Assembly (NCBI GenBank): GCA_900315315.1
Contig: OMYT01000013.1
Coordinates: 1-64,000, forward strand
Origin: an uncultured Eubacteriales bacterium
GTDB taxonomy: Bacteria > Bacillota > Clostridia > Christensenellales > Aristaeellaceae
DNA: 64,000 nt
Reading direction: 5' to 3'
Shown one piece after another: positions 32,574-37,833 of this stretch (the first letter of the stretch is position 1; each line of letters begins with the position of its first letter). Both the position numbers and the translations under genes were made by a program. The notes below the pieces were generated by a model. It saw only the letters and a program-made list of their open reading frames with translations, was not told where the DNA came from and made no database searches.

Positions 32574-34457
32574 TTACAGTTTGCTGACAAAAAGCGCGCG
32601 GATGGCGTTGAGGACGGCAATAATCATGACGCCCACATCGGCGAAGACGGCCAGCCACATATTGGCGATCCCCAGCGCGCCGAGAACGAGGCAGACAGCC
32701 TTGACGCAGAGCGCGAGGATGATGTTCTGATACACGATGCGCATACACTTGCGGGCGATCCGGATCGATTTGGAGATCTTGAGGGGGTTATCGTCCATGA
32801 GGACCACGTCCGCCGCTTCGATGGCCGCGTCCGAGCCCATGGCGCCCATGGCGATGCCCAGATCGGCCCGGCCCAGGACCGGTGCGTCGTTGATGCCGTC
32901 GCCGACGAAGGCAAGCATTTCCTTTTCCGGCTTTTCCGCCAGCAATTCTTCCACTTTCGTGACCTTATCTCCGGGCAGAAGGTTGCTCCAGACCTGATCG
33001 ATCCCCAGTTCGGCGGCCACCTGCTCGGCAACGGCTTTTCCGTCTCCCGTCAGCATGACGGTGCGGCGGACGCCGGAGCGCTTCAGGGCGGCGATGGCTT
33101 CTTTCGCATCCGGCTTGACGACATCGGCAATAACGAAGTGCCCGGCATATTCGCCGTTGATGGCCATGTGAACGATGGTTCCGGCGGTGCGGCACTCGAT
33201 GGGTTCGACGCTGAGGGAGCGCATCAGGCGGCTGTTTCCGGCGGCCACCTGCCGGCCGTCGATCTCAACGACGACACCGTTGCCGCCGATTTCTTCCACT
33301 TTGCCGACGCGGCTCATATCCAGAGGCTTACCCCAGGCTTTTTTGATGCTCATACCGATGGGGTGGGAGGAGGCGCACTCCGCAAGGGCTGCATATTCCA
33401 GCAGGGCTTGCCGGTCCAGGCTGCTATGGTGGACATCCACCACATCAAAGACGCCCATGGTCAGGGTGCCGGTCTTGTCAAAGACGACGGTACCGGTTTT
33501 CGAGAGGGCCTCCAGATAATTGGAGCCTTTGACCAGGATCCCTTCCTTGCCCGCGCCGCCGATGCCGGCGAAGAAGGTCAGGGGGATGCTGATCACCAGC
33601 GCGCAGGGGCAGCTGATGACCAGGAAGGTCAGGGCGCGGTAGATCCACTCGCCCCATTCCGGCGGAAGGGACATGAGCAGGCGGACCAGCGGCGGCAGTA
33701 AAGCCAGCGCCAGCGCGCAGCAGACCACCACGGGCGTATACCAGCGGGCGAAGCGGGAGATGAAGTTCTCGGACTTCGACTTCCGGGAGCTGGCGTTTTC
33801 CACCAGGTCGAGGACCTTGCTGACGGTGGACTCGCCGAATTCCTTCGTCGTGCGGATGCGAAGGACGCTGTTCATGTTGATGCAGCCGCTGAAGATCTCA
33901 TCGCCCGGCCCGACATCCCGGGGAACGCTTTCACCGGTCAGGGCACTGGTGTTCAGGCTGGATTTGCCGTTTTCCACGATGCCGTCCAGGGGGACTTTTT
34001 CTCCGGGATTGATGACAATGACGGTGCCGATGGCAACCTCGTCCGGGTCGACACGGGTCAGATTTCCGTCCGCATCTTCAATATTGGCGTAATCCGGGCG
34101 GATATCCATCAGCTCCGAAATGTTCCGGCGGCTTTTGCCGACCGCGTAGCTCTGGAACAGCTCGCCGATCTGATAGAACAGCATTACGGCTACGGCTTCC
34201 TCATAGTCCCCGGTCTTCAGCAGGCCGAGGGCCAGCGCGCCGAGGGTTGCCACGGCCATGAGGAAGTTTTCATCGAAAACCTGGCGATTCAGGATGCCTT
34301 TCCAGGCTTTTTTGAGGATGTCATAGCCGATGACCCCGTAGGGGATCAGGTAGAGGAGGAAGCGGGGAATGCCTGAGACGGGGATGAAATGAAGAATGAT
34401 TAACAGGGCGGCGGAGATAATGATCCGGATCAGGATCTTTTTTTGTTTCTTATTCAT
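32574..34457 (-). CDS. cadA: Heavy-metal-transporting P-type ATPase (Cd/Zn/Co type)
   Basis: The 627-residue P1B-ATPase has about eight membrane helices, the CPC transport motif (VISCPCALVISIPLTFF), the phosphorylation site DKTGTLTMG, SSHPIG, and GDGINDAPVL. The CPC motif with the following C-terminal pattern suggests Zn/Cd/Co rather than Cu. It lacks its own N-terminal HMA domain; instead a separate HMA protein is encoded just upstream with a 4-base overlap. It would pump metal out of the cytoplasm. The gene name cadA is assigned by family and operon, not by proven substrate. Confidence 0.9.
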   Translation of the reverse strand: MNKKQKKILIRIIISAALLIILHFIPVSGIPRFLLYLIPYGVIGYDILKKAWKGILNRQVFDENFLMAVATLGALALGLLKTGDYEEAVAVMLFYQIGELFQSYAVGKSRRNISELMDIRPDYANIEDADGNLTRVDPDEVAIGTVIVINPGEKVPLDGIVENGKSSLNTSALTGESVPRDVGPGDEIFSGCINMNSVLRIRTTKEFGESTVSKVLDLVENASSRKSKSENFISRFARWYTPVVVCCALALALLPPLVRLLMSLPPEWGEWIYRALTFLVISCPCALVISIPLTFFAGIGGAGKEGILVKGSNYLEALSKTGTVVFDKTGTLTMGVFDVVDVHHSSLDRQALLEYAALAECASSHPIGMSIKKAWGKPLDMSRVGKVEEIGGNGVVVEIDGRQVAAGNSRLMRSLSVEPIECRTAGTIVHMAINGEYAGHFVIADVVKPDAKEAIAALKRSGVRRTVMLTGDGKAVAEQVAAELGIDQVWSNLLPGDKVTKVEELLAEKPEKEMLAFVGDGINDAPVLGRADLGIAMGAMGSDAAIEAADVVLMDDNPLKISKSIRIARKCMRIVYQNIILALCVKAVCLVLGALGIANMWLAVFADVGVMIIAVLNAIRALFVSKL

Positions 34458-34672
34458 AAATAAATTTCACAGTCGTCCTCGACTTTTTTGCAGGCGGAGA
34501 CGACCTGCTTCATCGTGGAGGCAGGGTCGGCACCTTCTGAAAAGTCGACGATCATTTTCTGGGCCATGAAGTTTACGGTTACGTCCGCAACGCCGGGGAC
34601 TTTCTTCGCGGCGTCTTCCATTTTGTTGGCGCAGTTGGCGCAGTCCACTTCGATCTTGTAGGTCTTTTTCAT
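34454..34672 (-). CDS. Stand-alone HMA-domain metal-binding protein
   Basis: The 72-residue protein is one complete HMA fold (beta-alpha-beta-beta-alpha-beta) with the metal site DCANCANKME (CxxC) and the C-terminal VVSACKK. Usually this domain is the N-terminus of the ATPase; here it is a separate ORF that overlaps the ATPase start by four bases, so it probably hands metal to the pump or senses it. It is the first gene of the operon; the ribosome site AAAGGAG is good. Confidence 0.88.
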   Translation of the reverse strand: MKKTYKIEVDCANCANKMEDAAKKVPGVADVTVNFMAQKMIVDFSEGADPASTMKQVVSACKKVEDDCEIYL

Positions 34673-34690
34673 GGGAATGCTCCTTTCTTT

Positions 34691-34775
34691 GGGGGGCTTT
34701 CCTCTTATTCAACGATTGCCCTGCGACATTGTCGCCACTGGCGACCGCAGTGCAATCGCCCCAAGCCCCCTTCGG
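34691..34775 (+). repeat. GGGCTTTCC repeat, long copy (CCACTGG hairpin) plus fragment
   Basis: GGGGGGCTTTCC, outer stem CGATTGC/GCAATCG, inner hairpin GTCGCC / GGCGAC around ACT (34731-34745), then CCCCAAGCCCCCTTCGG. A degenerate second piece, CTTTCTGAACTCCAAACCC-ATTCGG, follows at 34791-34815. It lies in the leader of the metal operon. Confidence 0.8.
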
Positions 34776-35067: not shown

Positions 35068-35112
35068 AAAAAGCTTAATGACTTTGTTTTGATAAATGAA
35101 AGGAGATACCCC

Positions 35113-35964
35113 ATGAAAAAGATTATCGCTCTGGTTGTTGCCCTGGTTCTGACCCTGTCCCTGACCGCCGCTTTTGCGGATTCGATTACCATTGCTGTTC
35201 CGAATGATCCCACCAATGAAGGCCGTGCCCTGAATATTCTTCAGGCTAACGGCGTGCTGAAACTGAAAGATGGCGCGGGTATCACTGCGACGAAAGAAGA
35301 TATTGAAGAGTATCTGACGGCTGAAATTGAATTCTATGAAGTGGCGGCCGATGTTGTTGCTCATGTGGTTGGAGATGTGGATTACGCGATTATCAACGGC
35401 AACTATGCTCTTGATTTCGGGATTGATCCCAAGAGCGCTCTTTTGACAGAGGAAGCCATCAATAATCCCTACATCAATGTAATCAGCGTGAAGGAAGGAA
35501 ATGAAGGAACTGATCTGGCCAAGGCACTTGCCGCTGCAGCGACCAGCCAGAAGGTGCTGGACTACATCAATGAAAAATACAGCGGCGTGGTTGTGATCGC
35601 TGTGGAGAACGTTACGGATGGCTATGACTCTTCTGTGGACTATGATGCCCTGAAGGGACAGACCATCGTCGTGGCTGCTACGCCCGTTCCCCATGAGGAG
35701 ATCCTGAAGGATGTTGTGGCTCCGATCCTTGCCGAGAAAGGCATTACGCTTGAGGTGAAGGAAGTTACGGATTATGTGACCCCCAACCAGTTTGTCGAAG
35801 CAGGCGATGTGTTTGCGAACTACTTTGCGCATCAGCCTTATCAGGATTCCTTCAACGCGGAGAACGGGACTCACCTGGTAACGATTGCCGGAGTGCATGT
35901 GGAGCCGATGGGACTCTACGCCGGAAAACAGACGGATCTGACCGCGCTGGGCGTTGCCAAGTAA
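35113..35964 (+). CDS. Circularly permuted NlpA/MetQ-family substrate-binding protein
   Basis: The 283-residue protein has a signal peptide (1-22, ending AFA) and then the two halves of an NlpA/MetQ protein in swapped order. Residues from 25 read ITIAVPNDPTNEGRAL, AIINGNYAL and NNPYINVISV, which in normal MetQ form the C-terminal half. From about 190 come TPVPHEEIL, TDYVTPNQF, NYFAHQPYQDSF and VHVEPMGLYAG, which normally form the N-terminal half. A new linker joins them. No lipobox Cys is visible, unlike typical Gram-positive binding proteins. The next genes are a MetN ATPase and MetI permease, so it probably delivers methionine or a related compound to them. The ribosome site AAAGGAG is good. 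Confidence 0.9.
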   Translation: MKKIIALVVALVLTLSLTAAFADSITIAVPNDPTNEGRALNILQANGVLKLKDGAGITATKEDIEEYLTAEIEFYEVAADVVAHVVGDVDYAIINGNYALDFGIDPKSALLTEEAINNPYINVISVKEGNEGTDLAKALAAAATSQKVLDYINEKYSGVVVIAVENVTDGYDSSVDYDALKGQTIVVAATPVPHEEILKDVVAPILAEKGITLEVKEVTDYVTPNQFVEAGDVFANYFAHQPYQDSFNAENGTHLVTIAGVHVEPMGLYAGKQTDLTALGVAK

Positions 35965-36059: not shown

Positions 36060-37127
36060 ATGATTGAATTAAGGAACTTGTCCAAACACTTTACCACAGC
36101 GGATGGCCCGGTAGATGCGCTCAAGCATGTATCCCTGACGATCAATGACGGTGATATTTACGGCATTATCGGTATGAGCGGAGCCGGAAAGAGCACACTG
36201 GTCAGATGTATCAATATGCTGGAACGCCCTACGGAAGGCTCTGTGATTTGGGATGGGACTGATCTGGGGTCATTGAACAAAAAAGAGATCCAGCAGGTGC
36301 GGCATCAGATCACGATGATTTTTCAGAGCTTTAACCTGCTGATGCAGCGTACATGTCTGGAAAATATCATGCTACCGCTAAAGCTGATCCATATGCCGAA
36401 GGCCAAAGCCAAGGAACGGGCGCAAGAACTGCTGGAGACAGTAGGCTTGCCGGATAAAGCCAACAGCTATCCGGCCCAGCTTTCCGGTGGACAGCAGCAA
36501 CGCATAGCCATTGCCCGTGCACTGGCAACTGAACCGAAGGTACTGCTCTGCGATGAAGCAACATCAGCATTGGATCCCAAAACAACCCATTCGATTCTGG
36601 ATTTAATCCGGGATATTAACCGCACAATGAAAATCACGGTGATCGTGATTACCCACCAGATGAGCGTAGTTCAGGAGATCTGCAATCGGGTGGCTATTCT
36701 GGAAAACGGTACTGTGGTAGAAGAGGGAGACGTCAGCCAGATTTTTTCGAATCCAAAGGCCAGAGCTACCAAAGCACTTGTATTTCCGGATGTGGCTGAC
36801 GGAATGGATCATTACACGATGCCGAATCAGCAGACGGTTCGCCTGGTTTTCCAGGGCGCGGAGGCAACTGCGAAACCTGTGATCGCTTCCATGGCTATTG
36901 AATGCCATATTGCGGCGAACATCCTTTCTGCAACGACCAGGACGCTGGACGGAAAAATCTACGGAAACATGCTGCTGAGCATTCCCGGAGGACCGGACGA
37001 ACTGGCAACGGCAGTCAAATACCTGAGCAAACAGCCGTCCGTAACGGTTCAGGTTGACGTGGAATACAAATCTGCTCCTGAGAATGACGCTGCGGATTCC
37101 GTCGGGGAGGTGGAAGCAAATGGGTGA
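36060..37127 (+). CDS. metN: Methionine-type ABC importer ATP-binding protein
   Basis: The 355-residue ATPase has GMSGAGKST, LSGGQQQRIAIARAL, LLCDEATSALDP and the switch His in VITHQM. After the ATPase domain comes a C-terminal NIL (ACT-like) domain (about 265-345) that senses methionine in known MetN proteins. It binds the MetI permease encoded next, whose start lies inside its last codons (8-base overlap). The ATG at 36060 follows GGAGAGAG. Confidence 0.92.
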   Translation: MIELRNLSKHFTTADGPVDALKHVSLTINDGDIYGIIGMSGAGKSTLVRCINMLERPTEGSVIWDGTDLGSLNKKEIQQVRHQITMIFQSFNLLMQRTCLENIMLPLKLIHMPKAKAKERAQELLETVGLPDKANSYPAQLSGGQQQRIAIARALATEPKVLLCDEATSALDPKTTHSILDLIRDINRTMKITVIVITHQMSVVQEICNRVAILENGTVVEEGDVSQIFSNPKARATKALVFPDVADGMDHYTMPNQQTVRLVFQGAEATAKPVIASMAIECHIAANILSATTRTLDGKIYGNMLLSIPGGPDELATAVKYLSKQPSVTVQVDVEYKSAPENDAADSVGEVEANG

Positions 37128-37833
37128 TTATATTGCCACATACTATAATCCCGAGAAACTCGAAAAAGCCTGGGCGGTCATCCAGAGAGATTTTCTCAGG
37201 GAAACGGGAGTAACACTATATATAACCCTGATGGCAACTCTCTTTGCGATTCTGATCGGCCTTCCCCTGGGTGTGCTTCTGGTAACGGGAGACAGCAAGG
37301 GAATCCGTCCGCTGCCAAGGCCTTTCATGGCATTTCTGAACGGCCTGATCAATCTTCTCCGCTCGGCGCCGTTCATCATATTGATTGTAGTCCTGATGCC
37401 AATTACCCGGGCTATTATCGGTACGGCTGTGGGAAATGCGGCGGTGATCGTACCGCTGATCATAGCAGCTTTTCCTTTTGTCGCCCGACTGGTAGAAGGA
37501 TCTCTGCGGGAAGTAAATCCGAATATCATTGAGATGTCCATGTCAATGGGTGCAACAACCTGGCAGACGGTATTCCATGTGATGCTCCCGGAAAGCGTGC
37601 CTTCGCTGATTACCAGTTTTACAACGGCAATCACCACGATCCTCGGATATACAGCTATGTCCGGTGCCGTGGGCGGCGGCGGCCTTGGAAATCTGGCCAT
37701 CACTCAGGGACAGCAGCGGTTCAACCAGGCGGTGCTGGTTGCTGCCTTGATTGTGCTTGTTATTCTGGTACAGGTTTTCCAGACCGTCGGAACAAAATTA
37801 GCCAAGAAAGCGGATAAACGGATCAAACAATAA
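37120..37833 (+). CDS. metI: Methionine-type ABC importer permease
   Basis: The 237-residue permease has five hydrophobic segments and the coupling motif EGSLREVNPNIIEMSMSMGA, followed by TAMSGAVGGGGLGNLAI, both typical of MetI. With MetN it forms the transmembrane channel of a D/L-methionine-type importer. The start is inside metN, so translation is coupled. A terminator follows. Confidence 0.92.
   Translation: MGDYIATYYNPEKLEKAWAVIQRDFLRETGVTLYITLMATLFAILIGLPLGVLLVTGDSKGIRPLPRPFMAFLNGLINLLRSAPFIILIVVLMPITRAIIGTAVGNAAVIVPLIIAAFPFVARLVEGSLREVNPNIIEMSMSMGATTWQTVFHVMLPESVPSLITSFTTAITTILGYTAMSGAVGGGGLGNLAITQGQQRFNQAVLVAALIVLVILVQVFQTVGTKLAKKADKRIKQ

Follow-up and report, generated by a model that had tools for sequence, protein, structure and literature searches.

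A probable natural circular permutation of the methionine-binding protein MetQ, encoded beside metN and metI, in an uncultured Eubacteriales bacterium and its relatives

Organization of the locus

The window analyzed here is the whole 64,000-nucleotide stretch of contig OMYT01000013.1 (assembly GCA_900315315.1) from an uncultured Eubacteriales bacterium. On its plus strand lies an open reading frame of 283 amino acids (35113–35964), which starts with the ATG at 35113, ends with the stop codon at 35962–35964 and has an AGGAG-like site just 5′ of the start, at about 35101–35106. The protein matches a single Pfam family, PF03180, to which the methionine-binding protein MetQ and the NlpA proteins belong. 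Its residues 1–22 (35113–35178, plus strand) form a signal peptide, MKKIIALVVALVLTLSLTAAFA, with the cleavage site placed by eye; the peptide ends in AFA, and inspection of its sequence found no lipobox cysteine. Directly after it comes ITIAVPNDPTNEGRAL, which in an ordinary MetQ is the start of the second half. The rest of the frame, on the same strand, is made up of the C-terminal MetQ half, placed first (35176–35595, PF03180 profile positions 95–233, E = 7.3e-35), a new linker of about 23 residues that connects the former C-terminus with the former N-terminus (approximately residues 162–184, 35596–35664, the gap between the two profile matches), and the N-terminal MetQ half, placed second (35665–35949, profile positions 1–94, E = 1.1e-27).

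Two transporter genes lie directly 3′ of this metQ and run in the same direction. The first, metN (36060–37127, plus strand), encodes an ABC ATPase with a C-terminal NIL domain (Pfam ABC_tran, 3.1e-39; NIL, 1.6e-16), and the second, metI (37120–37833, plus strand), encodes the permease (Pfam BPD_transp_1, 1.4e-17). The best NCBIfam models were MetN (TIGR02314, 351.6 bits) and MetI (PRK10782, 168.5 bits), both under their cut-offs of 499.7 and 212. At the Rfam gathering thresholds, the window yielded one tRNA only and no riboswitch for methionine, of the SAM type or any other, and a 16S search of the genome found none.

A heavy-metal P-type ATPase gene lies on the minus strand, divergent from metQ, and together with a small gene upstream of it spans 32574–34712. 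By eye, this small gene (34467–34712 region) looks like one for a metal-binding protein of the HMA type.

Swapped order of the MetQ halves

A sequence-only reading of this gene had assigned its motifs to the two halves of MetQ, and had proposed that the halves stand in swapped order with a new linker between the old ends. The motif assignment proved correct. In the MetQ/NlpA family the N-terminal half is followed by the C-terminal half, whereas here profile positions 95–233 precede positions 1–94; both matches fall in one open frame, free of stops and frameshifts, and the approximately 23 residues that separate them are the proposed linker. Against the whole protein, PF03180 scored 215.9 bits (cut-off 27, E = 5.8e-64), in two stretches.

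The swap is equally evident from a rotation scan, in which the protein was globally aligned at every rotation to five linear MetQs. The alignment to E. coli MetQ with the halves exchanged, which the earlier reading had named as a check, scored 299 against 80.5 for the linear one; the score for the Oscillibacter MetQ (locus L081) rose from 196 to 578.5, and those for the remaining partners from 95 to 364, from 92 to 364 and from 71 to 280.5. The rotated score was thus three to four times the linear score, and the optimal cut fell at residues 162–170 for all five partners. Shuffled and rotated controls, of which the best of 20 was taken for each partner, never exceeded 39.5, so the gain is far above chance. 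Once rotated, the window protein is 54% identical to the Oscillibacter MetQ (127/237 aligned residues) and 32% identical to E. coli MetQ (76/238). All 22 PDB sequences found at E ≤ 0.001 match the protein in two stretches, and in each case the best stretch aligns a half of the window protein with the other half of the PDB sequence.

The cut falls in the loop immediately before the ITIAVPND strand, which may be the hinge strand at whose start the earlier reading had placed it. The distance from the N-lobe motif to this loop is 46 residues in 47 of 53 linear MetQs, and the distance from the same motif to the chain end is 44–49 residues in all 29 aligned relatives with the window's cut (type A, see below). 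Judging from these lengths, the core seems to have lost nothing, and no duplicated segment is evident in it either.

Distribution of the permuted gene

The permuted genes found in other genomes fall into two types, A and B, which differ in the position of the cut: approximately between profile positions 94 and 95 in type A and 98 and 99 in type B. PF03180 was found in 42 of the 45 genomes of the genus, three giving no match; 41 of the 45 carry a permuted copy, and one (G013) has linear copies only. In the window's own genome, the permuted metQ is the sole PF03180 gene found, the two matches both lying within it. Among 250 genomes of the family, 84 have a full-length type A match (E ≤ 2e-85), and further rows fit type B. 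The order survey (E ≤ 1e-40, 396 genomes) gave type A in 15 genomes and type B in 4. At the class level (E ≤ 1e-36, 391 genomes), a full-length match was found in 18 genomes besides the window's own, from ten families; ten of these 18 sequences were read and all are type A, the other eight being known from the profile match alone. The phylum survey (398 genomes) gave two genomes besides the window's own, G1049 and G638, the second of which the class survey contains as well. The matches listed for the named collection comprise 80 loci, 39 permuted (L033–L071) and 41 linear. The survey of homologues that the sequence-only reading had suggested thus found the permuted order to be common in related genomes.

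Most of the listed named carriers are assemblies of gut and rumen Clostridia; two are labelled Christensenella and two Lachnospiraceae. Carriers with a Chloroflexi or Anaerolineaceae label may come from misnamed bins. Three loci with such labels (L053, L060, and L063) have a type A metQ close to the clostridial ones, and their bins are probably contaminated or misnamed.

Two sets of matches were rejected as carriers or unusual forms. In G1219, G1351, G972, and G138, what matched the permuted profile over its full length is in each case a tandem of two linear metQ genes separated by stops, and not a permuted gene. An 811-residue fused frame in G113, like other long frames, proved on reading to contain a normal type B gene, the extra length being nothing but open frame upstream of it.

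The operon is largely shared by the type A genes. Among the 39 listed named loci, metN lies 3′ of metQ in 37 and metI in 36; within the fetched flanks, metI is absent in three and metN in two, one of these cases being L063, where the sequence stops shortly downstream. With the shorter flanks available for the 82 distinct type A genes, metN was seen in 76 and metI in 51. Type B genes also adjoin metN and metI wherever they were read with a long enough flank.

The P-type ATPase gene adjoins the type A metQ in five of the 39 listed named loci and in L248. Apparently the same ATPase slot occurs in two members of the genus, L003 (G029) and L004 (G012), with 76% and 68% identity over the part seen, and there it holds a linear metQ and a diverged metN (48%); the met operon thus seems to have been exchanged as a whole at this slot.

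Two permuted families

The second permuted family, type B, had gone unnoticed in the sequence-only reading. The linkers of types A and B are unlike in both length and sequence. We compared the two types in trees of rotated sequences, which included 29 of the 82 distinct type A proteins and all seven type B proteins found by then. Type A formed one clade (100/100) and type B another (100/99), with linear MetQs between them. Forcing the two types into one clade cost 45.9 log-likelihood units (AU test, p = 0.0103). The same separation was found in the MetI tree, in which the partners of type A (40 rows, 100/100) and those of type B (10 rows, 100/99) form separate clades; 13 loci without MetI were left out of it.

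The first tree contained long-branch linear rows. Six of its 32 linear rows were dropped (L003, L004, L005, L006, L008, and the linear protein of L010), and of 29 further linear rows, 27 went into the second tree, L210 and L213 being left out because their motif was not recognizable. Only the second tree resolves the sister of type A, a group of Oscillibacter and Eggerthellaceae rows (97/91). The sister of type B was L005 in the first tree and L156/L198 in the second, and we are unsure of its exact identity.

Taken together, these sequence comparisons indicate that types A and B quite probably arose by separate permutations at nearly the same loop; our confidence stops there because the long-branch warnings touch type B and its sister. 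The main alternative is a single permutation, with the intervening linear proteins misplaced in the tree. The two cuts do lie within about five residues of each other, long branches were flagged in both trees, and the starred branches of the C-half tree, taken alone, force only one change, for the linear group. We nevertheless regard a single origin as improbable, given the AU test, the dissimilar linkers, the separate clades of the MetI partners and the N-half tree, which forces two changes.

The stem of the type A MetI clade measures 1.03 changes per column. We dropped the idea that this divergence is unusual and claim no special co-adaptation of MetI, because linear lineages have similarly long stems (0.86–1.02 in Treponema, Streptomycetes, and Coriobacteriaceae).

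One locus, L244 (G012:C4, 2214–7748), holds two met operons one after the other. The first consists of metN, metI and a linear gene for a MetQ-like protein of the YSKSQGPY type, and the second of a permuted type B metQ, metN, and metI. The YSKSQ type may have a different ligand, since it reads VEQH at the place of the FQH of MetQ.

Ligand pocket and function

The methionine contacts described for Neisseria MetQ are Y81, F98, H100, and Y103 in one lobe and R156, N213, and N238 in the other (PMC6739813). All seven are kept in the window protein. Residues R38, N95, and N122, in the half placed first, correspond to R156, N213, and N238, and residues Y221, F238, H240, and Y243, in the half placed second, correspond to Y81, F98, H100, and Y103. 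The seven positions are identical in all 29 type A rows; in type B, six are identical in 7/7 rows, and Y103 is kept in six and replaced by F in one. The two NCBIfam MetQ models scored the window protein at 107.4 bits (cut-off 374) and 106.8 bits (cut-off 228.85), and the linear MetQ of L081 is also under both cut-offs, with 221.5 and 217.6 bits.

Chain order, pocket residues and neighboring genes make it very probable that the window gene encodes a natural circular permutant of MetQ, which binds the substrate for the MetNI methionine importer encoded next to it. Going by the fold known for MetQ, the protein would keep the usual two lobes, its new ends would both lie at a single loop, and its pocket would close on methionine and then deliver it to MetNI for uptake.

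NlpA-family proteins may bind ligands other than methionine, and a protein with the MetQ fold could serve a MetNI-like importer of changed specificity, taking up another amino acid, a dipeptide or a vitamin. The scores of metN and metI under their NCBIfam cut-offs, the lack of a methionine riboswitch among the Rfam hits of the window and the variety of ligands in the family would fit such a case. We consider it quite unlikely, since the seven methionine contacts are kept throughout the type A rows and MetN has kept its NIL domain.

Origin of the permuted gene

The textbook route to a circular permutation is described as a tandem duplication followed by the loss of the outer halves (PMC3320104), and this is the likely origin of the permuted metQ. 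The gene would have been duplicated in tandem and would then have lost the outer halves, separately in the type A and type B lineages. A tandem pair of linear metQ genes is the expected intermediate of this route, and such pairs were found four times (L156, L177, L178, and L249). In them, the permuted profile matches the second half of gene 1 and the first half of gene 2, with one or a few stop codons lying between. L156 falls in the clade nearest to type B (99/86, with long branches), and its genus code, g35, also holds a type B carrier, G114.

Fission of metQ followed by re-fusion, or the fusion in a new order of halves taken from two MetQ paralogues, might produce the same chain. The best linear match indeed differs between the two halves of the window protein, being L079/L072 for the N-half (64%) and L075 for the C-half (52%). 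Still, type A holds together as a single clade whether the tree is built from the N-half, the C-half or the full sequence, and the tandem linear pairs that the duplication route needs have been seen four times; we judge an origin by fission or fusion to be quite unlikely. As for fragments of a normal metQ wrongly joined by the assembly or by gene calling, the genome is a draft, metagenome-like assembly (197 contigs, 89% complete), but we reject such an artefact as having practically no chance of being correct, since the frame has no stops or frameshifts, the linker is conserved among type A relatives (common pattern TDGYDxxVDYxALxGxTI), and the same order is present in independent genomes, including all 39 listed loci L033–L071 and the single-contig carriers G001 and G031.

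The sequence-only reading had named two results that would have spoken against it: a swapped alignment no better than the linear one, or a normal order in most relatives with an assembly error here. Neither was obtained, because the swapped alignment fits far better and the relatives share the order.

Anchoring

When the N-termini of the 82 distinct type A proteins were inspected by eye, a lipobox cysteine was found in at least 16; a crude lipobox pattern gave 23, several of them false. Lgt was found throughout the genus (45/45 genomes), and the window's genome has six matches to it. Among the 20 SBP_bac_1 matches of that genome, the crude pattern was found in four, two of them convincing, in a count in which about four of the 20 have a plainly wrong or uninformative reading frame. 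Most of these SBP_bac_1 proteins (L216–L235) have signal peptides of the AXA type without a lipobox. An unlipidated binding protein therefore appears to be usual in the window's genome, and not peculiar to metQ. In four type A proteins (L027, L031, L055, and L145) the N-terminus resembles, by eye, an uncleaved membrane anchor and not a cleavable signal peptide.

The sequence-only reading had suggested that the permutation could alter hinge dynamics or anchoring. The permutation would also move the point of attachment. Judged from the known fold, the new ends would lie beside the first strand of the second half, which would put an N-terminal tether on the other lobe. The exported N-terminus is likely to be attached there, and not beside the first half, and the lipid anchor of the lipidated relatives likewise. 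In Neisseria MetQ, the lipid is reported to be required for the full stimulation of MetNI (PMC8416018). The missing lipobox cysteine therefore counts against the role proposed for the window protein, but the same lack in most SBP_bac_1 proteins of its genome lessens this objection.

Comparison with known systems

The closest known proteins are the linear MetQ/NlpA proteins of PF03180, such as E. coli MetQ, Neisseria MetQ/GNA1946, TpN32 (1xs5), and the structures 4ib2 and 4k3f. Their halves are homologous to those of the window protein, and the seven ligand residues and the metNI operon are found at the window locus too. They differ from the window protein in that its halves are swapped, with a new linker and new ends, and in that the window copy is without the lipobox cysteine. 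The MetQ fold is classed as Type II/Cluster F. The window protein does not fit the sugar-binding Type I/Cluster B, PF03180 being its only Pfam match and its solved homologues being lipoproteins of the MetQ/NlpA type.

MetNIQ ranks with the importers that have been studied best, and it should therefore be possible to test directly how chain order, hinge connection and tether position affect closing and delivery. Matched natural permuted and linear MetQs suit such comparisons, and offer a natural test of how far the fold tolerates rewiring. For annotation, profile-based naming scores the permuted MetQ poorly (about 107 bits, where the cut-offs are 229 and 374), and the linear MetQ of L081 falls short as well.

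The known natural case most similar to ours is TpMglB-2 (Tp0684), described as a circularly permuted glucose-binding protein and proposed as "Type Ic/Cluster Bc" (PMC4990184). The same report describes ligand binding and a change of shape in vitro, and its authors gave an anchoring rationale. Like the window protein, TpMglB-2 binds the substrate for an ABC importer and is naturally permuted, and the window protein shares with Type Ic/Cluster Bc the property of being a circularly permuted substrate-binding protein. The two differ in several respects. TpMglB-2 is described as having a Type I/Cluster B sugar-binding fold, in which no more than the first three strands of one lobe have changed place and the hinge has gained a fourth crossing; its moved part is weakly conserved (13% identity), whereas the moved half of the window MetQ is clearly homologous. 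Permuted binding proteins have also been engineered, and together with permuted halves of the ribose-binding protein they are described as evidence that such folds can tolerate permutation (PMC9815098); these are engineered and not natural.

In the open-access literature searched for permuted MetQ, NlpA-like or other solute-binding proteins, TpMglB-2 was the only report found. Natural circular permutation thus looks rare in Venus-flytrap binding proteins, with one precedent found, a Type I sugar binder. The genes described here could, though we put this forward only tentatively, form a subclass of their own, permuted and widespread in gut Clostridia, among the Type II binding proteins. What the window case adds to TpMglB-2 is conserved halves, linear sisters, a transporter of its own and an apparently independent second occurrence.
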